DNA of 64,000 bases from Stropharia rugosoannulata (lineage: Eukaryota > Basidiomycota > Agaricomycetes > Agaricales > Strophariaceae), in assembly GCA_028532985.1 (NCBI GenBank), contig JANCIK010000013.1, positions 1,488,001 to 1,552,000 on the forward strand, given 5' to 3'. The translations under genes and the position numbers were made by a program. Below are positions 1-64,000 of this stretch, piece after piece. Every line of letters begins with the position of its first letter. The first letter of the stretch is position 1. The notes beneath the pieces are model-generated. The model did not search any database and was not told the DNA's origin. It saw nothing but the letters and a program-made list of their open reading frames with translations.

Positions 1-1113
1 GACTTCAATCACGTGTTCTTGGCCGAGGCGGCTAAGCTCACGAAGGCGCCTACCCTGCTCACGAATCATACCCTGGTGACTTACTTCACCAATAGTCTCA
101 CTGCGGGGTTCAGGGATCGTTTGTTTAATAAACTGGACATTGATTACACGACGCACGCATCGTTCGACAAGTTCTTGACTGAGCGCAATATACAGTTCAC
201 CGCACCTACTGGGGTGATGGTAGAAGCGCGCACCGAGGACATGTACCCTCTCAAACAAGTGGCTGAGATGGCGGAACAAATGGCCCGCACCAAGAACCCA
301 AGCACTATGCTGAGCCTAGGGCACGATAGCACTGATGGACTTATGCCGGTGCCCGCCATCAAGACCGAGGCCGCGGATGTTGGTTTGCTGCGCAGAGAGA
401 TTGAGGACCTGAAAGGGTTCGTCGCCTCTTTTAAAGATACCTTATCGTTAGTAGAGAAGACAGTGGCAAAGTCGAAGGAGTCGAGTAAGAAGGAATTAGA
501 GGACATTATTCGCAATGTCATGGCTGCATGCACCGCACCGATGTCGGTGCCTGTGCAACCAGTAGCCCCCATGATGCCCATGAGCGCACCGGGTTTCGGT
601 GGACCGCTGCCTAGGCCTTTCCAATACCAACAACGCCCGGAGCCCCGTTGCTTCTACTGCAAGCAGACGGGACATGTGGTTGCTGAGTGCATCGTATGGC
701 AGCAAGACTTGTCAGCTGGAAGGATTGTCATCACAGAGGCGGGGCGCTTACAGTTGCCTGATGGGTCGTCGATACCCTGGGACCCTTCGTGCACGATCAA
801 AGAGCACGTCAACAAATGGCACAAGAAGAACAGGCAGCCCGTGCAGCAAGCGTATATGGCACCCGTCCATCCCTCGTACATGAGTATGCCTCCTAGCATG
901 GTATACTCACAAATGTACCAACCGGCCAGTTCCTTGGACGAGACCTATGAGGAGCAGATACGCGCACTTCAGCAAGAGCTGGAGAGTAAGAAGGCGTTCC
1001 TGAAGGAGCGCGCATCGGCGAAGACGCCTGAGGAGGTGATAGAGGAACAGCGTCAGCTAATAGCGACTATGAAAGCCGAATGCGACGCTGCACTCAGTCA
1101 GGGTTTCGATTGA
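1..1113 (+). CDS. gag: Gag polyprotein of element A, C-terminal part
   Basis: The frame is open from base 1, so the N-terminus lies outside the window. It matches the last ~370 residues of the Gag of E (54789-56741). Visible parts are a helical capsid-like region, a Pro/Met-rich linker, and one CCHC zinc knuckle (CFYCKQTGHVVAEC, about residue 215) for RNA packaging. A Gln/Glu-rich coiled-coil tail ends at a TGA (1111-1113). The last codons contain the slippery heptamer GGGTTTC, which shifts ribosomes -1 into protease. Gag would form the cytoplasmic virus-like particle. Confidence 0.9.
   Translation, partial: DFNHVFLAEAAKLTKAPTLLTNHTLVTYFTNSLTAGFRDRLFNKLDIDYTTHASFDKFLTERNIQFTAPTGVMVEARTEDMYPLKQVAEMAEQMARTKNPSTMLSLGHDSTDGLMPVPAIKTEAADVGLLRREIEDLKGFVASFKDTLSLVEKTVAKSKESSKKELEDIIRNVMAACTAPMSVPVQPVAPMMPMSAPGFGGPLPRPFQYQQRPEPRCFYCKQTGHVVAECIVWQQDLSAGRIVITEAGRLQLPDGSSIPWDPSCTIKEHVNKWHKKNRQPVQQAYMAPVHPSYMSMPPSMVYSQMYQPASSLDETYEEQIRALQQELESKKAFLKERASAKTPEEVIEEQRQLIATMKAECDAALSQGFD
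1101..1107 (+). promoter_or_regulatory. -1 frameshift heptamer, gag to pro (element A)
   Basis: The zero-frame codons GGT TTC preceded by G form G GGT TTC, a classical X XXY YYZ site, two codons before the gag stop. The protease frame is -1 and open across it. The same heptamer is at the same place in D and E. Confidence 0.75.
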
Positions 1114-2320
1114 GTCTGATGAAGGGAAACGCGGGCAGAGTTATGCGTAGCGGCTCTGATAAACCCAAGAACCTGGAGGGCGCAAATAGAAAGTTACCAA
1201 TCAGAAATATACCCAGAGCATCAGTTGAGGACGCGAGTGATGATGAGGAAGATGAGTTGCGAGAAGTAGTGGAGGAGCAAGGTGCGCGCAGCACACCAGT
1301 AAAGAAAAAAGTAGTGTTTGAGGTTCCTGCAAAGGCTGGGCCTAGTGCACGACCAGCAGCAGTGCCATATGTAATGGTACTGCCGCTGCACGTACCAGAG
1401 AAAGTGAAGAAGCCGGCCTATAAGCTGCGCGCACCTATCGAAGATGAGGCACAGGCTGATGCAGTCCTCAAACACTTAGAAAATCAGAAGATCGAGATCA
1501 CGCAGGGCCAGTTGTTAGGCATATCGACTGCAGGTTTTAGAAGAAAGTTCGTTGAGCGCATAGTACCAAGAAAGGTACCATTGGATTTGAACACGATGCG
1601 TGTACTACAATTAGACTATGATGAAGAAGAGCGTGAAGTAGATGAGGCTATCGCGCGGTTAGCAGAGGAAGAAGAGGAAGAGGAGTTTATGCAGATGGAC
1701 GAGCTACCAGTGGCCACTTTCCTTACTTGCTCAGATGAGCGCAGCGGACTACAACCGGGGACCATCATCATGGAAGACCCGTACAAGCAGTACGTCTCGA
1801 CTCTGCAGCCGGGCGAAAAGCCTAAGGGGCTTATTGTGGCGCACGAATCGCACCATCTAAAGGCGGTATTTCCGCTCATCAACGGCAAGGGACATGTGGA
1901 GACTTTGCTTGACAGTGGGTCGCAGATTGTGTCCATGGCACACGATACCGCGGAGCACTTAGGACTTAGTTGGGACCCAGACTTCACTATACGGATGCAG
2001 AGCGCGAATAAGCAGGTGGAATCCACCAAGGGCTTAGTGCACAATGTACCGTTTGTGTTTAACGGACTGACAGTGTATTTGCAAGTGCATGTCATCAGCA
2101 CAGCGGCTTACGAGGTGCTCTTGGGCAGGCCGTTCGAGATCCTCACGGAAAGCAATGTGAAGACGCGCAGCGATGGAACAGTTGAGCTTACGCTCACTGA
2201 CCCCAACACACAGTGCAAACTGGTAGTACCCACCTATAACTGAGGGTGTGGTCCCAAGATAGTGCAGCGCGAACCTAAGTTGCAGGACCCTGGTACAGCA
2301 GAAAACCCTAATGCAGATCA

Positions 2321-2327
2321 GGATTTT
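2321..2327 (+). promoter_or_regulatory. -1 frameshift heptamer, pro to pol (element A)
   Basis: GGATTTT read as G GAT TTT in the protease frame resembles the known pro-pol site G GAU UUA of mouse mammary tumour virus. Pol is in the -1 frame. The same heptamer is at the same position in D and E. Confidence 0.6.
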
Positions 2328-2341
2328 CAATCCTCGATGAT

Positions 2342-5300
2342 TTGATGCGTCAAGGAGAGGTCGCATTGATGTTTGACAGAGATGATCACACGGGGAAAAT
2401 AGAGATAGCGGGGTATGCGCTACCAAAGAATAAGAAGCGGTTTGGGAGCGCTGAGCTCAGGGATGTATACATGGCTCAAGCAGTACATGAAGCTAAGATG
2501 GAGGATAATGAGAAAGAAAGAATATACAAATATTTTCAGCAGTGCGAATGGTGCAAGGAGGAAGTAGTCAAAGGAGAACCTAGAGGGCAGTTCCGCGCAT
2601 CGCACGAGGAACAGGTCCCTAGTAAAAGACAAGGAGTAACGCGTAAGCGCTTGACTGGCAAGAATGCCACAACTGTTACAGTGCTCGTAGGAAAGAAGTA
2701 TAAGCCAGTGGCTGAGAAAGTCAGGCCTGTTTATCAAGATTTACCAGAGAAGTTTAGAATAGTGAGGGAGATTAAAGGGGACCCACTAAAGGATATGCCG
2801 CAATTGTCACCACATCCGCCAGACTTCATACCTACAGGTCAGTACACCGCTGAGTGCATGGAAGGGATTGACAAGGCGCATGAAGGGGATTTCCTGTGGT
2901 CCGAGGAGCGCAAGTTGGTGCATCAAGTTTTCATGCAGCAGAACGAGGCGTTCGCGTGGGATGACACAGAGAAGGGTAGATTCCGTACGGACTTCTTCCC
3001 TCCAGTAGACATTCCCACTGTAGAGCACACGCCTTGGGTATTGAAGAACATTCCGATACCACCTGGGATGTATGAGTGCATATGTGAATTCATTGCCACC
3101 AAGATTCGCACAGGCACATATGAGCCCTCGAGCTCGTTGTACCGGTTGTGCTGGTTTACAGTGACTAAGAAAGACGGGGTCTCGTTCAGAATTGTGCACA
3201 GTCTCGAACCATTAAACGCAGTAACCATTGCACATTCAGGGCTACCTCCAGCAGCGGAGAGCCTAGCGGAACACTTTGCGGGGCGCGCATGAGGCGGCAT
3301 TCTAGACTTGTATGTTGGGTATGATGAGCGCCTGTTAGCTGAGTCCTCTAGAGACCTGACTACATTCCAGACGCCGTTCGGTGCGCTGCACTTAGTAACC
3401 CTACCTATGGGATGGACGAACTCTGTTCCCATCTTTCATGAGGATGTTGCCTACATATTACATGATGAAATACCTGAAGTTACAGAGCCCTATATAGATG
3501 ATGTACCTATTAGGGGACCTAAAACGCGCTATGAGTTAGAAGGAGGAGGATACGAGACAATACCAGAGAATAAGGGAATAAGGAGATTCGTATGGGAGCA
3601 CATGTTGAATGTCAACAGAATCGTGCAGCGCATGAAATACTCAGGAGGAACATTTAGTGGAAAGAAGTCCATACTGTGTGCGGCGGAGATAGTAGTGGTG
3701 GGGCACCTGTGCACATATGAAGGGCGAAAGCCAGCACCTGATAAAGTGCATGCAATCCTCAATTGGGGGCCATGCAAGAACATCAGTGATGTGCGCGCAT
3801 TCATGGGTACAATGGGTCTGCTACGGATTTACATCTCGGATTATGCAAAGCGTGCAGAGCACATACAATGGCTATTGCGTGGGAAAGAGCCCTTTGAGTG
3901 GGGGCCCGCTCAGCAAGCTAGTATGGACTCGCTGAAAGACGGTGCACGCAACGCACATTGCGTGAAACCACTGGACTACACATTGCCAGGGCCGATTACT
4001 TTGGCTGTAGCTGTAGACACATCATGGCAAGCAGTAGGATTCTATATTTACCAGCAGGACCCACAAGATTCGAAGAAGAGGGTATATGCACGCTTCAGAT
4101 CAATACTGTTAACGGAACACGAGCAGCGCTTCTCACAGCCCAAACGGGAGTTGTATGGACTCTTACGGGCACTACAAGCCTGTTATTACTGGCTCATCGG
4201 TGCGCGCAAGCTGGTGGTGGAAACGGATGCCAAATACTTGAAGGGCATGTTGGATAATCCGGGCATGGGCCCTAATGCAACTATTAATCACTGGATAGAT
4301 AAAATACTTATGTATCACTTCCAGTTGAAACATGTTGCGGGAAAGACTTTCGGTGCAGGTGGTTTATCGTGCAGAGAAGGGCAACCAGGAGACGAGATGT
4401 ACGCACACTCTGAAGAAGATGATGATCAGGAGGTGGGACCACTCGAATACGAGAAAGTCTATGAAGGGGACCCGGATCCCCTGGACTTTGAGGAGTTCAA
4501 AGAACAGATCAATGATCACAGCGGGTATCTATACACAGGACTCCTCAACGAGTTGTTTGAAGGTCCCACAGCGCACAAGTTACCAGAAGCGCGCTCTATA
4601 GGCTGTTTCCAGCAGGAGCTCGAGCATGCACGGAAAGAGACGGAAGCGGAAAAGCGGACCGTGCGGGACTTCATACAGAAAGAGAGTGTGCCGCTCGCGC
4701 AGCGCGAGTACTTAGAGAAATTCATACTAGCACACGCGATACCCGACTCCAGAATAGAGGATCTGGAGGATGAGGAGTACGATGAGCGCAACAGGACATC
4801 TGCAGGAAAAGATATGGATGAGAAATTGCCGATGATACGCTACTGGTTGCAGAATCCAACCACTAGGCCTAAAGGCATGATGGAGCGAGAATATCAGAAC
4901 TTTACGAGGAATGCTCGTAACTTCTTCCTAGACAAGGACGGACGGATGTACCGGAGATCCATAGATGACGCGCATAAGTTGGTGATAGATCAGGCGCAGC
5001 AGACACGCATGCTGCGCTCAGCGCATGACAGCTTGGGGCACAGAGGAGCATACACTATGCATAAACTGCTAGCTGAGCGCTTCTGGTGGCCTGAGTTGGA
5101 AAGGGATGTCTACTGGTATGTGAAAACATGTCATGTCTGTCAGTTAAGGCAGAAGACGATCATCCAGATCCCGCACACCGAGACACACACACCGTCTATC
5201 TTCCAGCAACTACATGCAGACACTATGCACATGTCCCCAGCCTCCAATGGGTACAATTACATAGTGCACGGAAGATGTGTGCTGAGCTCATGGGCAGAAG

Positions 5301-6328
5301 GACGGCCGTTAAAGAAAGAGAATGCCCGTGCGATAGCGCAGTGGATATTTGAGGACATTATCTGCTGTTGGGGCTGTCTGCAAGAAATCATCACAGATAA
5401 CGGTGGACCGTTCTGCGCAGCGCTCAAGTATTTAGAAAAGAAGTATGGGATTACAGGGATTACCATCTCAGTGTACAATTCGCAAGCGAATGGCAAGATA
5501 GAGTGTCCCCATTGGGACATAAGACAGATGTTGTGGAAAGCGTGTGGAGGGACAGAAGGCGCACATAAGCGTTGGAGTAGATTCTTCTACCATGTGTTGT
5601 GGGCGGATCGTATCACTGTGCGACGAGGATTCAGGTGTTCCCCATTCTTCATGGTGACGGGCATGCACCCCATACTACTGTTTGACATAGCAGAAGCCAC
5701 GTGGCTGGTAAAGCTGCCAGATCGCATACTGACTACAGAGGAGTTAGTGGGGTATCGTGCACGCGCACTAGCCAAACATCGCGACACAGTAGAGGAGATG
5801 CATGCACGAGTATCGAAGACGAAAAGAGATGCAATCAGGGCATTTGAAAAGAAGCATTCGGCTAAAATCCGTGACTATGTGTTTAAGCCAGGAGATGTGG
5901 TGTTAATGAGGAACTCGGGCATAGAGTCCAGTCTGAATCGTAAGATGCTCGCACGGTGGAACAGGCCTTACATTGTTATTGCACGAAAAGATGGTGGAGC
6001 ATACTTAGTGGCAGAGATGGATGGCTCTGTGTTGAAGGATAAGGTGGCAGCGTTCTGCCTCATTCCCTACTTTGCACGAAGGCAGCTGCGCTTACCGGAC
6101 GGCTTGGATGATATAATTGATCAGACCAAGGAGAACCTCGCTAAAATGTTAGAGGCGCCGGATTATGAACCAGCTATTCCCAAAGATTATATCTTTGACG
6201 AGCCTGGTGTACCCTCGGGTAGGGCAGTGTGCTTACAGTGGAAGAAGATGAAGAAGACGAGGATGACTGGGGCAAAGAAGACACTTAGATGTGCGAGCAC
6301 TGTAGGAAGAAAAGTGACCACAATATAA
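2342..6328 (+). pseudogene. pol: Pol polyprotein of element A: RT, RNase H, integrase (broken)
   Basis: Domains in order: reverse transcriptase with LDLYVGYDE and catalytic YIDDVPIRGP (near 3490); RNase H with AVDTSW and ETDAKYLKGM; an integrase HHCC zinc finger ending CHVCQ (near 5140); the DDE core HADTMHM, ITDNGGPF, NGKIE; and a GPY/F-like tail. An internal TGA at 3290-3292 replaces the TGT (Cys) codon of E. A 6-bp duplication adds two residues just before the first RNase H aspartate. An indel near 6220 shifts the C-terminus, so the frame overruns to 6328. No chromodomain is visible. Confidence 0.92.
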
Positions 6329-6335
6329 TATATTG
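6321..6335. terminator. Palindrome between convergent pol and AS4 (element A)
   Basis: CAATATAATATATTG is an inverted repeat in the short gap between pol on + and AS4 on -. Similar AT-rich palindromes sit at the same spot in D (36175-36189) and E (49534-49548). A shared, bidirectional 3'-end signal is likely but inferred. Confidence 0.45.
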
Positions 6336-6415
6336 GGTAAAGAAGATGGGGAATACAAAGAGAGCTAGCTACAGATGCCTCTTTAAGGCGCGCAGCGCAC
6401 ATTGAGCCAGGCTAT

Positions 6416-9400
6416 CTACTGGGCCGGTTTGTCCTCGGTGGCGGCAACACCAGTAACGTCGAGGCTGCACTGCAAGATGACAAGCTGCTCGACGAGGAGC
6501 GTGCGGCACTTGAGGATGAAGTCAACCTTGTGGAGATCACAAATGATCTCAGCCTGTAAATTGCCGATGAGGCAGTGCATCACCAACTCGGAAGGGTTAC
6601 CCGTGTTAAGGGGCTCCTTAAGGAGGTTAGCAGTGGCATCGAGACAAGCATTGACCTTGTCATTGTCCAAAACAAGAGAAGTGCCTGAGGGAGAAGGGTT
6701 AGAAAAGATTAGTAAGAGAACGGTGCGATGCACGCACCTTGCATAATAAAAGGAGAGTCGGGAAACGTAGGAACGCCCTCTGAGCCCAGCCTGGCTTTCT
6801 TAGGAGAGGCCTCACCTGCGGCGGTGAAGGACCTTGTTTGGGTCTGGTCAAGTGCTCAGTGATGGCCCGTTTGTATGTCCTGCTAGAAATGCTCTAACAC
6901 AACACAACCAACAACCACAACAAAAACACACAACCAATCTCAAACAAATGCTTCTTTAATGCGAAGTTGGGGGTCTATGTACAAAAGAAAGACACAGTTG
7001 TCTTTTATAATATAAGCCGGGTAAACGTTTTCTTAACACAAAGACTCAGCCCAAGGGCGTGGTAGTGTAGTGTGATAAGTGTAGTTTGTGTGCGTATAAC
7101 GCGAGGTGCTCGAATGAGACTTAGTCTGACACGACGATCAGAAAGAGAACTGAATAACTGTTTAACCGCTCCAGGTATGTGCGCGACGACACTGCCTGCA
7201 AAATAACCGCTCCAGGTATACACGTAGTGTTGCCTGCAAAATGACTGCTCCAGGTATGTGCGCGACGACACTGCCTGCAAAATTAAACCGCTCCAGGTAT
7301 ATGTTTAAACGTTGCCTGCAAAACTGCTTCCAGACTCAAGACTTAGTCAAGTAATCCGTCAAAAGCTTTGAACTCTCTCTAAAACTCGCAGTGAGGACTT
7401 TAACCGTATATATTCACTCTAGGTAAATCTACTCGGGGGAACCTGTTATTCTACGTTACATGCTGGGGTATTTATACGTTTCTGGGAGACAGGTTTTCGT
7501 AGGCGCCCGGAGGCGTTCTCTACTAAAACCTCGCACCCGATTGGTTTGTAGGTCCATACGGTTCTGCCCGTTTAATTACATTTTAGTCGTTCTAGATGAG
7601 TGGAGTAAGAATTTGAAATAACTGAAAAAGGATAGATTCTGAAGGCTTGTCAGGAACGAGCCTATTTTTAGAACGGTTAAACCGTCTTTCGGTGCCTGGG
7701 CATCTGTCTGCCTCCTGAGTACAGTCAGTTTTACTACGCCTTGGCTTTTTGGAATGTAAGCCGGGACAGAGTTACCCCACTGGTGAGTCATCTTGCCTCC
7801 GACTGTACCCGCTTTTCAGGGTCTATCAGGCTCCTGCCAAATAGCCCGCTATATTCCCTCTGTATGGCCCGTACGAGGCCCCGCTAATTAGCCCGGTAGA
7901 ACTGTCTAAGTTTATTAGCCCGGTTTATTGACCTTTGCTAATTAACCCGGTATAACGTTCAATCAAACAGCCCGGTATAACGACTAAGTCATTTAGCCCA
8001 GTATAATGCCTAAGTCAAATAGCCCGGTATAATTACTCGAGTTAAATAACCCAGCATAATGATTTGCTTTTCCTAATCTCTCGTTTTCGATGGCTGGTTT
8101 TTTAGAAGACTGACCTGCTATAAGTCTCTAGTCGAGTTTCTTCGTTATGGTTGGTGTCATTTAACCCGGTATAATTTAACCCGGTATAATGCCTCTGCCT
8201 TTGCACTCTGTTTAACCCGCTTATCTGACTTCCTCGAAATTGACGACATTACTAAGTGTATTTTCTTGGGCAGTAACTTTACATTTAGCCCGGTATAATT
8301 ATACCGGGTTAAATGCAAAGCGTACCTGTGCTCTCCTTTATGCCGGGCTTATTATTATTCTAACTTTAAGCCGGTCAGATGCGCTTATAAGCCATACTGG
8401 TCATGCGACTAAGTCCAACCGTAAAGGCTTATTAACCCGCTTGTTTTAAAGTCTCTTGGTTTACTCTCCAGTTAAGTTCTTTAACGTGGACAGTTACCGT
8501 TGTCACTTTTACTTAAGCTTTTAGTGTGGTTTCGCTTATAGTTAAAATAGCCCGCTTAATTGATTAAGTGGAGGTCTACACTTGTCTTCATTATTCTCTG
8601 TCTCTCATTGGGTCATACTGAAGTCTTTAATACGACTTTAATAGTCTAGACTACTGAAATGATAGGATTTGTAGTAAAATCGCAAAATTTCATGGCCAGG
8701 CACTTAGGTGCCCTATCAGCGGCATCACGGAGTGAGCGACGAAGCTCGGTTTGACGATAAGTCATGCCTTGACCAAGGGGACGAGAGCAGTAACCAGGCG
8801 TGTCTCCGTGCTCGTGCTGGTATTTCTATAAGAATCTAAGTGCGCGCAGCGGAGACGGGTCAAACACACACCTGTTTAGGAGTATCAGGAGGCGCGGCAC
8901 GCTTCTTGTTAGGACTTGGCTCGGGTGTATGCTGCCTGCTGGGAGGACCTCCCTCAGTTGCGGCTTCAACTTTGTCGTTAAGGGCCATCTTTTTGAGGAG
9001 CATGTAAAGTTGCATGTTAGTGATGTCTGGTAAAGAAACCAAGGTTAGCCACACCTTGTCATTGTCAGAGTCAGGAGATGTAGTACCTCCAGGTGTGGAG
9101 GCGGTCTCAAGGTCCGCAGTTGCGGAACACATAAGAATGCGAATGTTGCACTGTGCGCACCAAAAAGGGGATTAAGTATAGAAAGGGTTAGGAGAGGAAG
9201 AGGAACGCACAGGTCCAGTAGGGGTATGGGTGCGCTGACGAGAAGCGGCAGCTTTAGCCTTGAGGACTTGTTCATGCAAATTGATAAATGCATTGGCGGC
9301 AGGGGAGAAGGAGCAAATATGGTGGTCAGCTTTAGTGACGTATATATGGCGCGAGTCTCATTGAGTATCTCGATAGCTTCATTGTTGTTTATAACGCGAG

Positions 9401-9628
9401 TGATACCGCTGTGCGTCCACGCCAGCAGTTCTGCAATCATGCCAGACAAAGTCAGTAACATACAACAAGGGAACCGTGCAATGCACGCACCAAATCGACA
9501 GCAAGTAGCTCCAGACTGCCGGTGTAATTTGCAGGGGTGGCAGAGGCCAACCCATGAATGTCCTGGATCAGCAAGAGTTGATGCTTGACATTGGTGAAGT
9601 TAAAAAGAGGAGCATGAGTAGTGGCCAT
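6416..9628 (-). pseudogene. AS4 antisense accessory gene of element A (disrupted)
   Basis: This is the counterpart of the intact five-exon AS4 of E (48138-49454). Exon 1 is 9628-9491, exon 2 begins at 9430, exon 3 lies around 9149-8872, exon 4 is split by the B solo LTR (6825-8718), and exon 5 is 6684-6416. Exon 5 has the same 269 bp as in E and encodes the C-terminal helical segment (DNDKVNACLDATANLL...). Exon 2 carries at least two single-base deletions relative to E (near 9415 and 9330), so the protein would be out of frame even without the LTR. Function unknown. Confidence 0.75.
6825..8718 (-). mobile_element. Solo LTR of family B inside element A AS4
   Basis: A full 1894-bp LTR, the same length as the B 5' LTR (14903-16796) and nearly identical to it, in reverse orientation. 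It is flanked by the 4-bp duplication GCGG (6821-6824 and 8719-8722). The homologous stretch of E around 49040-49060 is the uninterrupted site. It holds the B-family motif cluster (about 7850-8330) and the ~40-bp tandem repeats (about 7165-7325). No internal B sequence remains. Confidence 0.95.
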
Positions 9629-10159: not shown

Positions 10160-10423
10160 TCAGCACAGTGCATGAGGAGAAAGACCCACAGGAAAGAATT
10201 CCTCCTGGTAAAAGACCTGGGCGGCATAGTGGAGTTGTTGGAAGTGTTCAGAGTGAGGGAGGGTGCCGTAGCGCTCAGCATCAGTAGTACCACATAAGCG
10301 CAGGACGAGCTTGCTGTAGTGAAGCTGCACGCACAAGTGCGAGATACGGGGCGAGTGGCATGTAGCTTCAGTCAGTGCCAGAGAGCCATGCACGAAAAGG
10401 CTGGAAAAAGGGGACATGTGCAC

Positions 10424-49454: not shown

Positions 49455-49533
49455 ATAGCCTGGCTCAATGTGCGCTGCACGCCTTAAAGGGGCGTCTGTA
49501 GCTAGCTCTCTTTGTATTCCCATCTTCTTTACC

Positions 49534-49548: not shown

Positions 49549-49579
49549 TGGTCGCTTTCTTCCTACGATGCTCGCATCC

Positions 49580-53518: not shown

Positions 53519-54822
53519 ATCATCGAGGATTGAAAATCCTGATCTGCGTTAGGGTTTTCCGTTGTGCCAGGGTCCTGCAATTTCGGTTCACGCTGCACAA
53601 TCTTGGGACCGCACCCTCGGTTATAGGTGGGTACTACCAGCTTGCGCTGTGTGTTGGGATCGGTGAGCGTAAGCTCAACTGTTCCATCGCCGCGCGTCTT
53701 CACATTGCTCTCCGTGAGGATCTCGAACGGCCTGCCCAAGAGCACCTCATAAGCCGCTGCGCTGATGACATGCACTTGTAAGTACACTGTCAGCCCATTA
53801 AACACAAACGGTACGTTGCGCGCTAAGCCCTTGGTGGATTCCACCTGCTTATTCGCACTCTGCATTCGTATAGTGAAGTCCGGGTCCCAACTAAGTCCTA
53901 AGCGCTCAGCAGTGTCCTGTGCCATTGACACAATCTGCGACCCACTGTCGAGCAACGTCTCCGCGTGTCCCTTGCCGTTGATGAGCGGAAATACCGCCTT
54001 TAGATGGTGCGATTTGCGCGCCACAATAAGTCCCTTAGGCTTTTCGCCTGGCTGCAGAGTCGAGACGTACTGTTCGTACGGGTCTTCCATGATGATGGTC
54101 CCCGGTTGCAGTCCGCTGCGCTCATCTGAGCAAGTAAGGAAAGTGGCCACTGGTAGCTTGTCCATCTGCATAAACTCCTCTTCCTCTTCTTCCTCTGCTA
54201 ACCGCGCGATAGCCTCATCTACTTCATGCTCTTCTTCATCGTAGTCTAGTTGTAATATGCGCATCGTATTCAAATCCAATGGTACCTTTCTTGGTACTAT
54301 GCGCTCAACGAATTTTCTTCTAAAGCCTGCAGTCGAGATGCCTAACAACTGGCCCTGCATGATCTCAATTTTCTGATTTTCTAAGTGCTTGAGGACTGCA
54401 TCAGCCTGTGCCTCATCTTCGATAGGTGCGTGCAGCTTATAGGCCGGCTTCCTCTTCTCTACTACAGGTATGAGCTCCTCCCTAACCTTAGGTTTTACTT
54501 TCTCTGGCACGTGCAGCAGAGGTACCATTACATATGGCACTGCTGCTGGTCGTGCACTAGGCCCAGCCTTTGCAGGAACCTCAAACACTACTTTTTTCTT
54601 TACTGGTGTGCTGCGCGCACCTTGCTCCTCCACTACTTCTCGCAACTCATCTTCCTCATCATCACTCGCGTCCTCAACTGATGCTCTGGGTATATTTCTG
54701 ATTGGTAACTTTCTATTTGCGCCCTCCAGGTTCTTGGGTTTATCAGAGCCGCTACGCATAACTCTGCCCGCGTTTCCCTTCATCAGACTCAATCGAAACC
54801 CTGACTGAGTGCAGCGTCGCAT
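53515..54822 (-). CDS. Aspartic protease region of element E (intact)
   Basis: This frame is -1 to gag and overlaps its last 34 bases. It has a basic N-terminus (FRLSLMKGNAGRVMRSG), an acidic region (ASDDEEDEL..), a second acidic run (EEEEEEEF), then a retropepsin core with LLDSGSQIVSMAQD and VLLGRPFEI. It ends DQDFQSSMI just past the second slippery site. It should be made as Gag-Pro and Gag-Pro-Pol fusions. Confidence 0.9.
   Translation of the reverse strand: MRRCTQSGFRLSLMKGNAGRVMRSGSDKPKNLEGANRKLPIRNIPRASVEDASDDEEDELREVVEEQGARSTPVKKKVVFEVPAKAGPSARPAAVPYVMVPLLHVPEKVKPKVREELIPVVEKRKPAYKLHAPIEDEAQADAVLKHLENQKIEIMQGQLLGISTAGFRRKFVERIVPRKVPLDLNTMRILQLDYDEEEHEVDEAIARLAEEEEEEEFMQMDKLPVATFLTCSDERSGLQPGTIIMEDPYEQYVSTLQPGEKPKGLIVARKSHHLKAVFPLINGKGHAETLLDSGSQIVSMAQDTAERLGLSWDPDFTIRMQSANKQVESTKGLARNVPFVFNGLTVYLQVHVISAAAYEVLLGRPFEILTESNVKTRGDGTVELTLTDPNTQRKLVVPTYNRGCGPKIVQREPKLQDPGTTENPNADQDFQSSMI
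53533..53539 (-). promoter_or_regulatory. -1 frameshift heptamer, pro to pol (element E)
   Basis: GGATTTT on the minus strand, read G GAT TTT in the protease frame. The pol frame is open from here. Confidence 0.6.
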
Positions 54823-56741
54823 TCGGCTTTCATAGTCGCTATTAGCTGACGCTGTTCCTCTATCACCTCCTCAGGCGTCTTCGCCGATGCGCGCTCCTTC
54901 AGGAACGCCTTCTTACTCTCCAGCTCTTGCTGAAGTGCGCGTATCTGCTCCTCATAGGTCTCGTCCAAGGAACTGGCCGGTTGGTACATTTGTGAGTATA
55001 CCATGCTAGGAGGCATACTCATGTACGAGGGATGGACGGGTGCCATATACGCTTGCTGCGCAGGCTGCCCGTTCTTCTTATGCCATTCATCGACGCGCTC
55101 TTTGATCGCGCATGAAGGGTCCCAAGGTATCAATGACCTGTCAGGTAGCTGTAAGCGCCCCGCCTCTGTGATGACAATCCTCCCCGCTGACAAGTCTTGC
55201 TGCCGTACGATGCACTCAGCAACCACATGTCCTGTCTGCTTGCAGTAGAAGCAACGGGGCTCCGGGCGTTGTTGGTATTGGAAAGGCCTAGGCAGCGGTC
55301 CACCGAAACCCGGTGCGCTCATGGCCATCATGGGGGCTACTGGTTTCACAGGCACCGACATCGGTGCGGCGCACACAGCCATGACATTGCGAATAATGTC
55401 CTCCAGTTCTTTCTTACTCGACTCCTTCGACTTCGCCACCGTCTTCTCTACTAGCGACAAGGTATCCTTGAAGGAGGCAACGAACCCTTTCAGGTCCTCA
55501 ATCTCTCCGCGCAGCGAACCAACATCCGCGGCCTCAGTCTTGATGGCGGGCACCGGCATAAGTCCATCAGTGCTATCGCGCCCTAGGCTCAGCGTAGTGC
55601 TTGGGTTCTTGGTGCGGGCCATTTGTTCCGCCATCTCGGCTACTTGTTTGAGCGGGTACATGTCCTCGGTGCGCGCTTCTACCGTCACCCCAGTAGGTGC
55701 AGTGAACTGTATATTGTGCTCAGTCAAGAACTTGTCGAACAATGCACGCGTCGTGTAATCAATGTCCAGTTTATTAAACAATCGATCCCTGAACCCCGCA
55801 GTGAGACTATTGGTGAAGTAAGTCACCAAGGTATGATTCGCGAGCAGGGTAGGCGCCTTCGTGAGCTTAGCGGCCTCGGCCAAGAATGCGTGCTTAAAGT
55901 CCAGCAACACCTGGAGGTCTTCCTCTGAGATGCGCTGATTCTCCTTGCAGAGCTTCTTGAGCTGCGCAATGGACCCTGTCTGAATGCTGATCACCTCCGG
56001 GTACTTGTTGAGAATCATTTTCTTGAGCTCCGCGTACCCCTTGGTATCATAACCTGGTAAATTCTTCCACTCCTCCGCCGTCTGCATGGGTACATATTTG
56101 ATTACATATCCTCTCTTCTCATTGTCCTCCGTCACCTCCGCGCGCTTAAACCAATCCTCCAGGTCCTCGAAGTACCGCAGCAGCTCATCGCGCTCTGCAG
56201 CAGGATCGAAGCTCGGCGCGCCGCGCGCACCGCGTACTGGCATGGACATGTCCTTAGGCATAGTTTCTGATTCTCGTGGGGGTGTATTTCGTTCGCTTTC
56301 TGAGAGATCTGACAAGTCTCCTTCAAATATATCTCTCGCTACGCGCTCTGCTTCACTTTCGCTATTTTCCGCCGTGCGCTGCACGGATGTCTTAGCAGTC
56401 CCAAATACTTCCGAGAATGGAGGAGGGGTGTCTTGGGTAGCTTGGCTATCAGAAGTACCGAATGGTGCGGTTTCAAGTGTAATATCACTGTCCACTAATT
56501 GGTCTTCTGATTCAATGCCAGATGGTGGTCCCCAAAATCCACTAGCCCCTACTCTTAATTCCGAGTCGCTTTCGGTGAGCGCACCTGGGATGCGCTGCGC
56601 TAATCCCTGAGTCTCGATCTGCAACTGCGCTTCCTCCCTCGCTCTTTTCTTTGCTTTTCTGTCTCGCGTCGGTGTAATTACCAACGGCTCTACCAGCTCA
56701 GCATCTTTCTTGCTCCTCGTGGTTCTCTCGTGTGAAGGCAC
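54789..56741 (-). CDS. gag: Gag of element E (about 650 aa, with ATG-less N-terminal extension)
   Basis: The frame is open well upstream of 56741 (to about 56845), yet the first ATG is at 56261 (MPKDMSMPVRGARGAPSF). The 160+ residues before it (RSKKDAELVEPLVITPTRDR..., Ser/Glu-rich) are conserved in D, so they are probably translated. Then: helical capsid domain, Met/Pro-rich linker, CCHC knuckle CFYCKQTGHVVAEC, coiled-coil tail. The stop comes directly after the slippery site. Intact. Confidence 0.88.
   Translation of the reverse strand: MPSHERTTRSKKDAELVEPLVITPTRDRKAKKRAREEAQLQIETQGLAQRIPGALTESDSELRVGASGFWGPPSGIESEDQLVDSDITLETAPFGTSDSQATQDTPPPFSEVFGTAKTSVQRTAENSESEAERVARDIFEGDLSDLSESERNTPPRESETMPKDMSMPVRGARGAPSFDPAAERDELLRYFEDLEDWFKRAEVTEDNEKRGYVIKYVPMQTAEEWKNLPGYDTKGYAELKKMILNKYPEVISIQTGSIAQLKKLCKENQRISEEDLQVLLDFKHAFLAEAAKLTKAPTLLANHTLVTYFTNSLTAGFRDRLFNKLDIDYTTRALFDKFLTEHNIQFTAPTGVTVEARTEDMYPLKQVAEMAEQMARTKNPSTTLSLGRDSTDGLMPVPAIKTEAADVGSLRGEIEDLKGFVASFKDTLSLVEKTVAKSKESSKKELEDIIRNVMAVCAAPMSVPVKPVAPMMAMSAPGFGGPLPRPFQYQQRPEPRCFYCKQTGHVVAECIVRQQDLSAGRIVITEAGRLQLPDRSLIPWDPSCAIKERVDEWHKKNGQPAQQAYMAPVHPSYMSMPPSMVYSQMYQPASSLDETYEEQIRALQQELESKKAFLKERASAKTPEEVIEEQRQLIATMKAECDAALSQGFD
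54795..54801 (-). promoter_or_regulatory. -1 frameshift heptamer, gag to pro (element E)
   Basis: GGGTTTC on the minus strand, read G GGT TTC, then GAT TGA. Confidence 0.75.
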
Positions 56742-56906
56742 CGTTCCAAAGGATGGTCTGGCTTCTTCTGGCTCGGCGAGTGATGAAGGCGCAGGAAATT
56801 TGCCTCGCTTGTTACTCGTCCCCGTTTTATTTGAAATTTTTGTAATTTATTGTAATAGGTGCAAGCTGTAGTTCCCGAAACACTAAATGAGATTTCTGAA
56901 CCTTCC

Positions 56907-56923
56907 CCTCGCGGTGGGCTCCA
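56907..56923 (-). promoter_or_regulatory. Primer-binding site of element E
   Basis: TGGAGCCCACCGCGAGG on the minus strand, two bases from the LTR. Confidence 0.8.
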
Positions 56924-56925
56924 GA

Positions 56926-58136
56926 TGAGAGGTCTACTGCGTAGCTAGACTCGAAATCGTGAAACACAACACACACACACACACCCAGCGGAGCGAGATC
57001 CTATCCCTTAGATCAAGCGAACGCCCTCAACTAAACGGCGAGTATAATCTATGCTCTGCTCTGGTTCCCGTTCTGGGCGTGCGATGTGCGCACCTCGTGT
57101 CCTCTAGTCTTTGTAATAGCAAGTAGTGCCTGCAAGTTCGTTTGTAAGGAGGGGTTTAATTCTAGTAAATCTCGGATAGAGCCCGGTTGCTAGTGGCGTG
57201 CGCTAGGCAAAATGATAAATGAAATAAGTTGTTTTTTTAGTGAACAGCTTCGCTGCACGCACTTCCAGGTCCGGTGACCTCGTGCAATGTGCGGACTTTC
57301 CAAAGTCCAACAATCCAAGACTCTCCAAAGTCTTTCACCCGGCGGTGCAGTCTCACAGTCTAAACACTACAGTGCGAGTTTCCGTACACGGTTGTACTGA
57401 CTCCTCACTGAGCTCTCCAAATGACCCGGTGGCCAGACAAACTCCTATGATTCACAAACACTTCACAGTTAAAACCCTAACAAAAGCTAAACACAGCCCG
57501 CTGACAGCCTGGGACAGAACCCAGCACACAGATCTAGTGGGTAGACAATTGCTTAGATTACTATAGACAAGGATACAGGTTTATATGCGATGCGCGCATG
57601 TGTACTAATAATAAGGTAAAGTAAATACTAGCAACGTGCGGCCAAAGGTCCGCGCATCGCATCCGGGCTTCCCTTCGAGTGTCCTGATCCCTTGGCATTC
57701 GCTGCACGCATGTCGTTCATTCCCTCGGGCTTTTGCGCGTCTTTTGATGCGTGCCGCCACGGTCACATGATGTGTGGACTTAGACAAATTCTGCCTTTGC
57801 GATGCGCGCATATGAGATACGCGCACAGCCCTTCACACTGCCTTTGGTATCCGCTCAGCTGTACTCACACCGCTCTTTGCTGGTGCTTAACCGTTCTACG
57901 CTTTCCTGATCACTCGCACAGACGGCCAAACTATGCACTCTAGACTGTGCAGCTCGCTGACCAATCCTTCTCGCGATACGGTGCACGCAGGCGCTTGTAG
58001 TCATGATGCTCGCGCGCTGATAGCTATAGACTATGAGGCAGGCTCAACTCTAGTCTCTCTGTGTTTCCCGCGCGCAGCTATCCCATTAACGGACCTTCTA
58101 ACTGTTTACACCCGTAGCCAAAAAGCAGCCCTGTCA
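56926..58136 (-). repeat. 5' LTR of element E (1211 bp)
   Basis: On the minus strand TGACAGGGCTGC...CCTCTCA. Exact TGCGCGCA at 57591 and 57803, and variants (TGCACGCA, GCGCATCGCAT) at 57254, 57649, 57702 and 57982. TATAAA (minus, 57580-57585) lies right beside a word copy. The homologous D LTR has its TATA without that word. The LTR abuts B AS4 exon 1. Confidence 0.92.
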
Positions 58137-58249
58137 ACGTTACGATTGCAATGCTGGTTAATATCAGCCATAGCATCGGCCAGACGAGAGGCAATAATGT
58201 CTGAAGAAAAGCGAACCCGAGGGGAACGTGGCCTGCGAGGAGGAGACAT
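58137..58249 (-). pseudogene. AS4 of element B, first exon (cut by E)
   Basis: The ATG at 58249 starts a basic peptide MSPPRRPRSPRVRFSSDI... that runs into the E LTR. It resembles the start of C AS4 (MPPRRTACPTSTHK). Together with 23761-23980 it is what remains of B AS4. Confidence 0.5.
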
Positions 58250-58299
58250 GGATAGACGGTCAAAGAGACAAGTAAAAACCAGTAGAAAAATACAGGATT

Positions 58300-59829
58300 T
58301 TATATGTACAGATCTAAGTCCATACCCCCGGGATCACTACTACCTGACGGATGGTAACGGTGTGAGGTGCGAAGTTGGGTAGGACAGGTCTGAAAAGCCT
58401 GTCTCTATAGTTCACAATGTGCGAAGGCAACGTGTGTACAACGATAGCACGTTGAAAAGGTTTTACTTGTTTTATAACAAGGAGCTTCCAGTGTATGAGG
58501 TTTAAACAATGGTTTCCGATGCGAACTGGTATGATGTGTGTAGGTAGAATTTAACCCTGAAGGAAGCTGGAGAAGTACAGAGATATTCTACTCCTTAAAT
58601 ACCCGTCTGGTTGCCATGCCCAGATCGTACCATATACATCCACAAAAATCCGACCGCCTGTGCTGTCTTTATCTCGTCGGAAACCATGCTGCACTACAGC
58701 ATGCTTCATATCTTGGCCACAAATTTCCTTATCTTCGGAAACCAAGCCCAAGCACAAGAAATCTTCCTGTGGCCGGATCATCTCCATGTTCACCCCTAAA
58801 CATACATCTCCTCCAACCCTCTCTCCACACCTATGTCCCTTGTGTTTGTGTCGAGATTCTTCTGCTTTCTGCTACCACACGCCTGCATGTCGTCGGAAAC
58901 CCTTGCATATCGTCGGAATCTGTTGCCATATTTGTCCCAGGTCGTATGTATGAGTATTTCCATGTGATTGACTCCCTTGTGGGTCCATAGTTACATCAGA
59001 TTGTTAATATTGATCTGATGTTGTCAGCATCAGAAGTCCAATATTGCTCTGATGCTGTTGTCTTTCTTGATCTGCCATTGAGTTGTAATAACATCTTGAG
59101 TCTTCCTTGTGCTTGTCTTCTTGTTTCATCATGTACATATTTCATATCTTCGAATAAACTTGCATCTTCATATCTCAGTCTTCATATTTCGTGCTTCTTC
59201 TTGTTCTTTCAGTTTCCGATAGTAGTTTCCGATCGTCATGGCGGATATGTCGCTTCTTGTGTATCTATGTTGTAAACCATATGGTTATTCTTGTTTTCAC
59301 GAGGGGCCAGCCCCAGCCCCTCACAACGGGTAAAATCGTAGGGCAGCACGTTCACATGATACGAGCGGAAGCAAGCCTCAGAGCGAATGTACTGAGAAAG
59401 ACAAATTAACCGGGCTGTTGGCGAACAATCTAGAAGCCAAGAACAGACATACCCTTGCGAGACGACGGGCAAATTCCTCAGAGTCCCAGTCATACCAATT
59501 GCGAACGACAGAAGTCAACCGGGTATAATAGACTGACGGGTACGAAGGGGGATTGACCGCGTAATAAAGACACAAATGATACTCCTTGAGTAGTTGTACG
59601 ACCTGGTTGCGAAATTGTAGACCAGTGGATATGCCGGGCAAATGATCCAGGAGGTCCAACTAGACGAAAAGGGAGAGTCAGACCAAATAACCGGGTACAA
59701 AAACAGACCACTCACTGTCTCAGACATACAACCAACGGCAAGCCAATAGATGTCATCTAAGCTAACCGGGTTGGACTGTTTAGCACGGTTAATCGCCTGC
59801 AAGGTATTAGAAAGTTCCAAGTTGTCCAT
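58300..59829 (-). pseudogene. Middle antisense gene of element B (AS2/AS3 position), interrupted by a C LTR
   Basis: Exon 1 59829-59716 (MDNLELSNTLQAINRAKQ...), intron 59715-59660, exon 2 59659-59453 (LDLLDHLPGISTGLQF...), intron 59452-59392 containing CAGCCCGGTTAAT, exon 3 from 59391. Exon 3 is split after ...LPYDFTR by the C solo LTR and ends at 58300 (YHPSGSSDPGGMDLDLYI). All phases fit once the LTR and one 4-bp duplicate are ignored (about 148 aa). It could correspond to AS3 (first intron position) or AS2 (C-terminal pattern); I cannot decide. Confidence 0.62.
58361..59325 (-). mobile_element. Solo LTR of family C in element B (965 bp)
   Basis: TGTGAGGTGCGAAG...CCCCTCACA on +. It is flanked by ACGG on both sides (58357-58360, 59326-59329), a 4-bp target-site duplication. 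The host exon is continuous across it. It is nearly identical to the C 3' LTR at 34540-35504, in inverted orientation. Confidence 0.95.
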
Positions 59830-60087
59830 GAGTGAACAAGGGTCAAAAAGACTCAGTTTAAAAGAGGGATCAAAAGACGGAGTCCCAAATGCAGACAAAT
59901 AACCGGGCAGAAAACTTGTAACAAAATTCTTAAAGGAAAGAACTTGAAAGAATAAATCATTCACTCAGGTTCACACTTAAGAAGTTATCAAGAAAGAAAG
60001 AATATAAAATTTGTACTCCTACTAAAGAAGTACACAAGAGAGAACATTACACAAAAAGAAGCAGACAAAACAGTACAAAAAGACCCC
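59830..60087. other. Spacer between B AS1 and the middle antisense gene
   Basis: The gene frame stays open upstream of the ATG at 59829 to about 59964, without another ATG (a GTG is there). Otherwise AT-rich, no gene seen; contains ATAACCGGGCAG near 59900. Confidence 0.45.
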
Positions 60088-61901
60088 TCAGACAGTCCAC
60101 CCTGATTCGTCGACCTCCATTTCAGACTCAGCTGGAGGAGCCGGGTCCACCTCTTCGGAACCTTCAGCCTCGGACTCAGCTAAAGAAGCGGGGTCGGCGC
60201 GCTGGGTGTCGTTGTAAGGTGCAACTTGAGGCACCTCGGGCATGTAGGACTCTGCCAGGTTCTCCACCACAGAGTCAACCGAGAAACGAGTGCGTACCCG
60301 CCCCAACCCGTCAGAAGCCCGCGTAGCCTCCACCAAGGCGTCAAAAGATGCGCGGTCCATTGAGGCATGCATAGAGAAGATGGCGTCGGGCGAGTCTGAC
60401 TCGAGGAGTAAGCCCAAGCGGGCGTAGATCCGGTCGCGATAAAATTCGGCCCAGGCGAAACTGGCCTCAGCTAACCGACTCTGGACGAGATATTGCTCCG
60501 CCTGATGTTGCAAGCTGGAGAAGTCATCTTGAATAGCTAAAAAGGAGAAAAAAAAAAATAAGTTAGAAATAATAAGAGAGTTAGAAGAAATGCAGCTTAC
60601 CAGCTAGGGAAGTGCCACCCAAAAAGTGGCACCGCTCAGCTAAAAGAGCCCGCTCGTCCGGAGAAGCAAGGAAAGTACAAGGGAAAGTGGTGGATTTGCG
60701 CACTATACAAGGAGTGCACCTATCTTCCCCTTCCTGTACCTCGCAACGGTCCTCTAGACCGAGAAGCAGGCAGGCGGCGCAAGGCGTCGGGAGCTAGAAG
60801 GGAGAATGTTCTGAGTACCAAAAAAGACAGAACCAGAACTAAGAAAACTCACTTGAATGTTGTGTTGGACCCAAAGCCCCTCAGCTTGAGCCCGGTTTAT
60901 CATTTGAGGAGGACGGGGATCCTTAAACTCCAGAGGAGTGGCCTCCCAGCAATGTTGTTGCGCGTAGTGTGCATATGCGGGACCTTCGCGGGCAGTGTTC
61001 CTGCACACGGGACGAACAGGCGGCAGAGTAAAAGCGGACCCGTCAGTTTGACTAGTGGGGACGGGGACTGCACGAGATACAGAAGGGCGGGGTCTCCCCG
61101 TGAAAGGATGAACTGGCTCGTGCAGGCCTTCGGCAGGGAGAAGATCCCAATCCGGGGTCACAGCAGGAAGAGCAGGGGACGAAAGACCACGGAAACCAGG
61201 AGTAGGAGGAGTTAGTAATTCTGCGTCCACTACTGTGGGCAGAAGAGGAGGCGGTGTGCGGCAGAACTCTAAAGCGGGACGATACCCGTCGAGTTGAAGC
61301 AAGCCTGGGCCAAAACCCTCTAATAAACCCTCCAAAATGTGAGGGAAGTCTTCGTCGAATCCTTGAACAGGTGCGATCAGAGGGGAAGGGAAATCAAGCT
61401 GCTTTAGAGTGGTGACGGGGCAGACAGAACCATAGTCTATCTAGAAATAGAGGAAGCAAGTCAGCACAAATAATAATAAAAAGATTAAAAGAGGGAGCTT
61501 ACCCAGGGAAGAACTAACCAGTCCAGATCAAGCTCATCCAAGATCTTGGAGGGCAGGGACTGAACAATCGGAATAAGCCACCGAAAAACCTGTCGAAGCT
61601 CTGGCAACATAGTGCCCGCTTGTTCAATCTTCTGGTACGATCCACCATTGAGGGCGAGAAGGGAGTTCTGAGCGTTACGGAACAACGGGGGAAAAATGGA
61701 TTTAACAAAATGCCGTGCTGCAGATGGATCATTGAGGAGGGGGCGAGCGACTAAAGCATCACAGAGAAGGCGGAAGGGCTCGGCCCAGTCAACAGACGCC
61801 ACGGAGAAGTGACAGCACTCCAAGGCCTCGGCCAGGTCCTTGAAAAACTCGCTGTAGATGGTACGAGAGGAGAGCGCAGGATAAGGAGAAGGCGCGGCCA
61901 T
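60088..61901 (-). CDS. AS1 of element B (528 aa, 4 exons) with a cysteine cluster
   Basis: Exons 61901-61503, 61440-60853, 60751-60601, 60536-60088. All introns are GT-AG and all phases fit. The N-terminal 130 residues are helical (MAAPSPYPALSSRTIYSEFF...). The middle ~200 are Pro-rich and probably disordered. Exon 3 gives cysteines at about 332, 341, 344, 354 (RCTPCIVRKSTTFPC), a possible zinc site resembling C-x2-C-x6-C of C AS4. A helical segment and an acidic tail (EVDPAPPAESEMEVDESG) follow. The exon 3 acceptor (CTAGAG) is my choice; another acceptor would put a stop in the frame. Unknown function; the strong acidic tail could be an activation-type region. Confidence 0.68.
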
Positions 61902-62544
61902 GATAACAAGTAGAGGGGAATGAAGGAAAGCAGTACTAAGCCGGGCTGTTTAAATACAGAATAAAAGGCAAAAAGACCGCGCGAGCAAAAGCAAAAGAAA
62001 GGAAGAGACATTACCAGAAGAAGAGTAGAACAGAGGGAGAAGAAAACATATGAGGATCCAGAAAGTGGGTAGTAGTAGAAGACGGGTCAACGGGAGTCAT
62101 TCGACCAAGAATGGAAGAATCAATGCCTAATTAGGCACCGGTCACTTAACCGGGCTCTTGAAAGACCATTGGAAACGAGAGTCATTTTGACATAGCAAGA
62201 TCACCGTTCCAAAAACAGTCATCCTATGTCCCCGTCTTAAACAGAAGAGTGGCTCGGTCATCTTACAAAAAGGCGGGCACAATGGGGAATAGAGACCTAT
62301 GCGGGATGTAGCGGTGGCACAGCACTTTATCCTAAAAAGGAGATAGTAGCCGGGAGTGCATACTAAAAATAGCCAAACAATGAGCACAATGAATAAACAC
62401 ATTCCTCATTGTGATAAACAATGAAGAAGTGTAATCGCTCAACAGAGAGAACGATGAACAGCGTGGTGGGTTAAAAATAGACGGCCGGTGAAGTCCGAAA
62501 GTAAAAAGATCAGTCAGTATCGACTGAGGACAGTCGAGTTATGG
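61902..62544. other. Region between B AS1 and the 3' LTR
   Basis: It should contain the AS1 promoter (TATTTAAA-like on the minus strand near 61950). B words at AGCCGGGCTG (near 61940), AACCGGGCTC (near 62150) and AGCCGGGAG (near 62350). I see no gene. Confidence 0.5.
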
Positions 62545-62555
62545 TTTGGGGGAGA
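62545..62555 (+). promoter_or_regulatory. Polypurine tract of element B
   Basis: TTTGGGGGAGA immediately before the 3' LTR, like that of C. Confidence 0.8.
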
Positions 62556-64000
62556 TGATAGGGCACCTAAGTGCCTGGCCATGAAATTTTGCAATTTTAC
62601 TACAAATCCTATCATTTCAGTAGTCTAGACTATTAAAGTCGTATTAAAGACTTCAGTATGACCCAATGAGAGACAGAGAATAACGAAGAAAAGTGTAGAC
62701 CTCCACTTAATCAATTAAGCGGGCTATTTTAACTATAAGCGAAACCACACTAAAAGCTTAAGTAAAAGTGACGACGGTAACTGTCCACGTTAAAGAACTT
62801 AACTGGAGAGTAAACCAAGAGACTTTAAACAAGCGGGTTAATAAGCCTTTACAGTTGGACTTAGTCGCAGGACCAGTATGGCTTATAAGCGCATCTGACC
62901 GGCTTAAAGTTAGAATAATAATAAGCCCGGCATAAAGAAGAGCACAGGTATGCTTTGCATTTAACCCGGTATAATTATACCGGGCTAAATGTAAAGTTAC
63001 TGCCCAAGAAATACACTTAGTAATGTTGTCAATTTCGAGGAAGTCAGATAAGCGGGTTAAACAGAGTGCAAAGGCAGAGGCATTATACCGGGTTAAATTA
63101 TACCGGGTTAAACGACACCAACCATAACGATGAAACTCGACTAGAGACTTATAGCAGGTCAGTCTTCTAAAAAACCAGCCATCGAAAACGAGAGATTAGG
63201 AAAAGCAAATCATTATGCTGGGTTATTTAACTCGAGTAATTATACTGGGCTATTTGACTTAGGCATTATACTGGGCTGTTTGATTGAACGTTATACCGGG
63301 TTAATTAGCAAAGGTCAATAAGACGGGCTAATAAACTTAGACAGTTCTACTGGGCTAATTAGCGAGGCCTCGTACTGGCCATACAGAGGGAATATAGCGG
63401 GCTATTTGGCAGGAGCCTGATAGACCCTGAAAAGCGGGTACAGTCGGAGGCGAGATGACTCACCAGTGGGGTAACTCTGTCCCGGCTTACATTCCAAAAA
63501 GCCAAGGCATAGTAAAACTGACTGCACTCAGGAGGCAGACAGATGCCCAGGCACCTAAAGACGGTTTAACCGTTCTAAAAATAGGCTCGTTCCTGACAAG
63601 CCTTCAGAATCTATCCTTTTTCAGTTATTTCAAATTCTTACTCCACTCATCTAGAACGACTAAAATGTAATTAAACGGGCAGAACCGTATGGACCTACAA
63701 ACCAATCGGGTGCGAGGTTTTAGTAGAGAACACCTCCGGGCGCCTACGAAAACCTGTCTCCCAGAAACGTATAAATACCCTAGCATGTAACATAGAATAG
63801 CAGGTTCCCCCGAGTAGATTTACCTAGAGTGAATATATACGGTTAAAGTCCTCACTGCGAGTTTAGAGAGAGTTCAAAGCTTTTGACGGATTACTTGACT
63901 AAGTCTTGAGTCTGGAAGCAGTTTTGCAGGCAACGTTTAACGTATACCTGGAGCGGTTTAATTTTTCAGGCAGTGTTGTCGCGCACATACCTGGAGCGGT
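62556..64000 (+). repeat. 3' LTR of element B (cut by the window end)
   Basis: Starts TGATAGGGCACC and matches the 5' LTR for about 1476 of its 1894 bp, with point changes and an ~20-30-bp deletion near 63265. It confirms that everything from 14903 onward is one B insertion containing later insertions. Confidence 0.94.

Follow-up and report, generated by a model that had tools for sequence, protein, structure and literature searches.

Four families of long terminal repeat (LTR) retrotransposons and one KDZ DNA transposon (KDZ1) in the genome of the basidiomycete Stropharia rugosoannulata are each dense in their own short, CpG-containing word. The elements were studied from a window, the whole stretch of 64,000 nucleotides at positions 1,488,001-1,552,000 of contig 13 (JANCIK010000013.1; host genome of 48.0 Mb in 20 contigs), which consists of nested Ty3-type LTR elements with B and C solo LTRs and a KDZ fragment in between (Table 1). 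Matches to DUF4100, KDZ, and TET/JBP by themselves make a basidiomycete probable. Elements A and E form one family (94% identical), D is its sister (about 76%), and B and C are more distant; the Ty3/gypsy assignment of the window elements relies on their LTR repeats and on RT_RNaseH and Integrase_H2C2 domains. The family words are TCCGCTGA in D, TCGGAAA in C, TGCGCGCA in A/E, and a CCGGG-type word in B, and composition, codon use, and tandem repeats fail to explain those of D, C, A/E, and KDZ1. With a probability of about one half, each family would encode a protein binding its own word, and this binding would most likely oppose silencing, in the manner of the VANC proteins of Arabidopsis VANDAL transposons. 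An original prediction, made from the letters of the window, had proposed a recognition code with this same parallel, and it is the reading best supported by the shuffle tests, the differing words of D and E, and the antisense exons described below.

Exact words were counted over whole elements and compared with an order-2 Markov expectation. In D, TCAGCGGA occurs 27 times for 0.86 expected; the corresponding values are 33 and 2.95 for TCGGAAA in C (both LTRs included), 7 and 0.03 for CCCGGTATAA in B, and 28 and 8.7 for GCGCGCA in E. The six exact copies of CCGCTGAG listed by the original prediction in the D LTR (44891, 44953, 45075, 45526, 45697, and 45778) were all found, the E LTR was indeed devoid of them, and the six heptamers announced for the C LTR are TCGGAAA, six in each of the two C LTRs. 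A control preserving dinucleotides and codon use had also been called for, which the words of D, C, and E survive, whereas A pol and B do so unevenly. In A, C, D, and E, the most frequent 8-mer outnumbers any 8-mer of all 200 dinucleotide shuffles, while that of B (9 copies) lies inside the range of 4-10 given by 200 shuffles; the best 10-mer of B (7 copies) beats all 100 shuffles, whose best words reach 2-4. Upon synonymous-codon shuffling, CCGCTGA in D pol (14 copies vs 1.6) and the word in D gag (7 vs 1.2) are matched by 0 of 1000 shuffles, as are TCGGAAA in three open reading frames (ORFs) of C and GCGCGCA in E pol. GCGCGCA is reached by 27 of 1000 shuffles in E gag and by 87 of 1000 in A pol, and the B ORFs give mixed results.

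The words are found in LTRs, in 3' regions, and also within coding sequence, where they occur in every phase and on either strand. All 10 words of the D LTR share the same orientation; internal words take both. Short arrays of 15 and 26 bp in B contain 2 of the 7 CCCGGTATAA, 2 of the 9 CGGGTTAA, and none of the 11 AAGCGGG, and the D word stands in tandem in one short D array only. Seven GCGCGCA were counted in the 2.2-kb 3' region of A, which includes 8722..10440. According to a density table, the words are nearly, but not completely, confined to their own family: D holds 7 GCGCGCA. All five strong words (those of A/E, B, C, D, and KDZ1) contain CpG, as had been stated, and most of them are palindrome-like. 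Symmetric word-motif models were set aside as partly an artefact of both-strand counting, all 12 D LTR matches being TCCGCTGA, and even word spacing, shown by KDZ1 alone among eight tested (0.013), is not used as evidence. The words are indifferent to orientation, phase, and element class, and a code in double-stranded DNA is therefore favoured over RNA or codon readings.

For an orphan fragment lying between the LTR elements, the word GCCGGC had been put forward. It is not significant in the fragment alone, but the parent element, KDZ1, found in L063, confirms the related word CCGCCGG. This parent gives matches to a KDZ transposase (PF18758, E=1.9e-43) and to CxC2 (E=2.1e-21; L063:4981-7155), and within 6.5 kb it contains 31 exact copies of CCGCCGG, where 1.4 are expected. 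The most frequent 7-mer of 100 shuffled versions reaches 6-11 copies, against 31 in the element itself, and the transposase ORF has 11 CCGCCGG vs 0.85 in codon shuffles. The orphan is thus part of a KDZ DNA transposon that has a word of its own, and the phenomenon therefore spans transposon classes. In KDZ2, GGCCGA is dispersed and occurs 19 times for 3.5 expected, which merely equals the best shuffled 6-mer (12-19, 100 shuffles), and KDZ3, whose aligned parts are 69-73% identical to KDZ1, lacks CCGCCGG and any word that rises above the shuffles; neither is therefore counted as a strong case. The genome also contains 32 TET/JBP matches (31 over the cut-off) on ten contigs and six DNA methylase matches. 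For 26 of the TET/JBP matches, a KDZ transposase match stands on the opposite strand at a distance of 2.7-7.6 kb (81 of 123 KDZ matches used), and one TET/JBP match is located at contig 13:1483100-1483540, about 4.5 kb before the window start.

Other genomic copies had been proposed as a further check, and the words of D and A/E do repeat there, while those of C and B do not rise above a genome-wide control. TCCGCTGA is found 2930 times vs 1144 for the reversed control (2.6x) and GTGCGCGCA 1893 times vs 342 (5.5x), against 1988 vs 2216 for C and 211 vs 261 for B; for these two words, therefore, only local density counts. Of the TCCGCTGA matches listed on the + strand, 18 are spread over the opening 2.29 Mb of contig 1, and the 15.8 kb that follow contain 42; this dense stretch holds an integrase frame of D's length. 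The D copy L061 has 26 CAGCGGA vs 1.6 expected in its 3' region, and three further A/E copies have 16, 10, and 16 TGCGCGCA vs 0.6-0.7 expected. The A/E word is, thus, strong in these three copies but weak in those of the window, probably in part through CpG decay, which leaves TGCACGCA forms.

The claim of one word per family holds for A/E, B, C, D, and KDZ1, but three other LTR families for which the 3' region was read (L038/L064, L058/L066, and L032/L065) have no comparable dispersed word, although their 3' regions may be incomplete. L038, L058, and L032 were recounted without overlapping sequence. The best words of L038 then fall within the shuffle range, and the excess in the other two families is only local: AAAGTTA of L058/L066 (11 copies) was rejected as a family word, since it lies mostly within one inverted repeat (L066 1703-2446), and the C/T-rich words of L032/L065 are all at L065 3584-3735. 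GCGCGCA in L032/L065 was traced to an E insertion, and AAATAAA of the L041 family was discarded as one local array per copy read. Two weak candidates are ACCCGAC, with 7 copies vs 0.44 in the pol piece of L032 but 0 in L065, and AGCGGCA, at 6 distinct places in L058/L066. No comparable word was seen in six more LTR families, a weak negative, because only about 3.2 kb of pol was covered per family.

The sister families D and E carry different words. When 34 D words are aligned with E, the first-position T is replaced by G in 10 cases vs 2.0 expected (10 of 33 D words compared with 7 of 98 other TCAG sites, Fisher p 0.0016), and the seventh-position G by C in 9 cases vs 1.9 (p 0.024 against CGG sites). 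The aligned E windows differ by at most one mismatch from GCAGCGC for 9 of the 34 D words and for 8 of 91 near-words. From these alignments, some sites appear to have switched word in place; at the rest, E has no word-like sequence. Among 30 copies of the D LTR, transitions outside the words amount to 7.5% at CpG and 1.6% at other sites, and inside the words to 7.9% and 2.8%, respectively; we infer that the CpG excess is the usual trace of CpG methylation. Since CpG decays in the words as it does outside them, the words are not protected after insertion and persist against decay. Loss at this ordinary rate also means that they were built up in active lineages, against that loss.

A candidate for the protein that would read the words is found in the 3' regions. 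Antisense ORFs and exons lie between pol and the 3' LTR in C and in copies of D and E, and the pattern C-x2-C-x4-22-C-x3-18-C-x2-C-x4-10-C, scanned over 120.5 kb in six frames, gave four hits, one antisense in each 3' region of B, C, D, and E, of which only those of B and C are independent, because the pattern was written after viewing the D and E peptides. By chance, it occurs 0.2 times on average and at most twice in 60 shuffles of the same 120.5 kb. The six-cysteine exon is also present in the A/E copies L069 and L070. Among LTR families for which the 3' region was read, it accompanies four of four with a word and none of three without. Its layout is similar to that of a zinc cluster whose loops differ, with the reservation that two of the four peptides served to draw up the pattern. 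Copies of the C exon stand at 24 places in the genome (that of the window included) with 82-100% identity and at one further, weaker place, and the E antisense gene has 142 genome matches, in several tiers of identity. Protein searches with antisense ORFs of C and E returned no homologue, and the 278-aa antisense ORF of C has neither a Pfam match nor a homologue found.

The gene carrying this exon, AS3, differs strongly between copies of the A/E family. Between L062 and L070, identity is 94-99% through the end of pol and the antisense genes AS1 and AS2, drops to 54-72% in AS3 (one bordering bin being at 80%), and stands at 89% in the LTR. For the pair L062 and L069 it is 84-97% as far as AS2, then 73% and falling in AS3, and the right ends do not align again, probably because L069 continues there into different sequence. 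AS3 (about 3000-6000 in L062, L069, and L070) is hypervariable, by fast change or cassette exchange. GCGCGCA occurs 14 times in the divergent stretch of L062 (2.0 expected), 9 times in that of L070 (2.1), and 6 times in that of L069 (1.2), and 3 of 9, 2 of 9, and 2 of 4 copies stand at the same aligned place across the three copy pairs. The word is, thus, enriched in divergent AS3 but mostly at new places, and was therefore kept or regained during sequence turnover.

Most simply, AS3 is the reader, a candidacy suggested by its co-occurrence with the words. It would make a DNA-binding protein, probably a dimer, which would bind its own family's word as double-stranded DNA along the whole element. 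Such binding would most likely oppose host silencing of the CpG-methylated element, as in Arabidopsis VANC; this anti-silencing role is inferred from the analogy. Protein and word would change together when families split. KDZ1 would need a different reader, because its stretch was read without the cysteine pattern, perhaps its own zinc-bearing transposase or an unseen protein. A still wider proposal can be made only tentatively, and we consider it rather unlikely as a whole: unrelated transposon classes would share a self-recognition code, in which each successful family has its own CpG word along its entire length, coding parts included, and a hypervariable, zinc-cluster-like dimer that reads it and keeps the CpG methylation of the host off that family alone, word and protein drifting apart at family splits.

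Several results weigh against a self-encoded, VANC-like reader. The six-cysteine pattern is independent for B and C only, and the contrast with word-free families compares three families with possibly incomplete 3' regions. Against PF00172 (Zn_clus), the C peptide scores E=1.6 and 9.4 bits for a cut-off of 21, and the three other peptides have no match. The six-cysteine exon has no PDB match, and its structure model is not confident (pLDDT 55). The pattern is missing at the three KDZ loci, even though the KDZ1 word is very strong. The seventh-position change from G to C between D and E is not significant against GCGG-matched sites (9/34 vs 23/128, p 0.19). Lastly, word sites are not better conserved in solo LTRs, where non-CpG mismatches reach 3.0% in words and 2.0% outside.

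The same data could be read in other ways. The words may bind a family-encoded protein for another use, such as limiting copy number by self-repression, acting in transcription, or directing integration into nests of the family itself. The elements are nested, with several D LTR copies per cluster on some contigs, and self-encoded binding fits the same data; nevertheless, words in every part of the element exceed the needs of a promoter, and we consider this alternative unlikely. It is improbable that the words are targets by which host proteins recognise each family. A methylation-based defence would agree with the CpG that they contain and with its decay in the copies, but selection should remove such targets, yet the words spread through coding sequence and stand at new places in divergent sequence. 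Base composition, codon use, or tandem duplication would account for some B words in 15- and 26-bp arrays, for the mixed codon shuffles of B ORFs and A pol, and for KDZ2, but as a general origin of the words this is very improbable: D, C, E, and KDZ1 beat both dinucleotide and synonymous shuffles, the D word stands in one short D array only, the words occur in all phases and on both strands, and CpG decay opposes them. An RNA-level signal, e.g., for packaging or translation control, suits LTR elements that pass through RNA and the single orientation of the 10 D LTR words, but hardly the internal words in both orientations, the palindrome-like form of the words, or a DNA transposon, and is the least credible of all.

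Table 1. Features of the window (positions 1 to 64,000 of the stretch).
Feature	Position	Strand	Basis and remarks
A element (A/E family), gag-pol	1..6824	+	94% to E; GCGCGCA 18 vs 3.25 expected; word TGCGCGCA/GCGCGCA
B solo LTR within A	6825..8721	-	99.7% to 14900-16796; B words partly in short tandem arrays
A element continued past B solo LTR, antisense-gene region	8722..10440	+	93% to E
C solo LTR with C words	11512..12456	-	94-97% to C LTRs
KDZ1 DNA-transposon fragment (orphan of the original prediction)	12457..13130	.	82% to L063:1032-1661
AS3 antisense-gene fragment, A/E relative	14218..14899	-	63% protein identity to L062:3582-5255
B element, gag-pol	14900..23977	+	LTR 14900-16796; words CCGGG / AAGCGGG / TTATACCGGGTTAA
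C element	23978..35507	+	LTRs 23978-24937, 34540-35507; word TCGGAAA
C antisense exon, six-cysteine zinc-cluster-like pattern	31616..31765	-	six-frame pattern scan
C antisense ORF, 278 aa, upstream of six-cysteine exon	33738..34574	-	no Pfam match, no homologue found
D element, 3' end outside window	35508..46036	-	LTR best taken 44618-45964; word TCCGCTGA/TCAGCGGA
E element	46037..58356	-	repeats, domains, word counts; word TGCGCGCA
C solo LTR with C words	58357..59332	-	repeat comparison
Second B element, 3' internal region	59333..62555	+	purine tract then LTR; words AACCGGG/CCCGGTTA
B antisense exon, six-cysteine zinc-cluster-like pattern	60644..60793	-	pattern scan; no Pfam match
B LTR leaving window	62556..64000	+	96% to 14900-16796; CGGGTTA 6, CCGGTATA 5

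As regards the element boundaries, more of the listed genome copies of the D LTR begin at positions 65-67 of the LTR first proposed than at its position 1. A putative primer-binding sequence, TGGAGCCCACCGC, is common to B, C, and D after the 5' LTR (window 16797, 24938, and about 44600). The ends of the C element (23978 and 35507) show no matching target-site duplication by eye, which suggests recombination between elements. An insert of about 1.07 kb with inverted ends (CATCAGGAAAA...TTTTCCTGATG) is present at 10451-11510, beside A, and at 40827-41919, inside D; it is probably a small DNA transposon, and is rich in a non-CpG repeat (AAAAAGAC, 11 vs 0.76 expected in D). Elsewhere in the genome, contigs C7 and C8 (L059 and L060) open with the same L041-family retroelement, at offsets 1279 and 1278, perhaps a subtelomeric repeat.

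VANDAL elements are Mutator-like DNA transposons of plants. Their families differ in a short repeated motif and encode diverged, related VANC proteins, and co-evolution of motif and protein has been proposed (PMC5735166, PMC10398659). The motifs of these elements form tandem repeats in non-coding DNA, and their binding by VANC has been demonstrated (PMC5735166, PMC10398659). The elements described here are similar in that a family-specific short motif is repeated within the element. They differ in being Ty3-type LTR elements and a KDZ transposon, not Mutator-like ones, and their words, unlike VANC motifs, also lie in coding sequence, are mostly dispersed, and, for the strong ones, all contain CpG; their binding is predicted. 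Fungal Zn2Cys6 proteins (PF00172) prefer CGG. The antisense peptides resemble them in part, with six cysteines in two C-x2-C-x(n)-C halves, and the preference for CGG fits the words of D, C, B, and KDZ1, whereas the loop lengths differ, the hidden Markov model match is not significant, and the A/E word has no CGG.

Retand LTR retrotransposons of plants have a long region between pol and the 3' LTR with antisense TRP28 ORFs, predicted to be DNA-binding and suggested to have a regulatory role (PMC11963269). C, and copies of D and E, likewise have antisense genes in the stretch from pol to the 3' LTR. In contrast to Retand, no TRP28 Pfam match was obtained among the antisense ORFs scanned here, and the available part of that source describes no family word (PMC11963269). 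TET/JBP-bearing KDZ transposons of fungi are known (PMC12730594); the KDZ transposons here are similar, with 26 of 32 TET/JBP matches within 8 kb of a KDZ match on the opposite strand, while family words do not appear in the portion of that account available (PMC12730594). Among the papers listed from the open PMC literature, no match was found for antisense zinc genes, dispersed family motifs, or hypervariable antisense genes in fungal retrotransposons.

The family word may let a family recognise itself and resist being switched off. If this is true, sequence-specific self-recognition of the VANC kind would not be peculiar to one plant transposon group, but would extend, in a kingdom other than that of plants, to LTR retrotransposons and at least one DNA transposon, with words inside protein-coding sequence. 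It would also give a way to ask how retrotransposons that lack TET/JBP genes cope with CpG methylation. B, C, D, and E would then offer four diverged protein-word pairs for studying the co-evolution of DNA-binding specificity.

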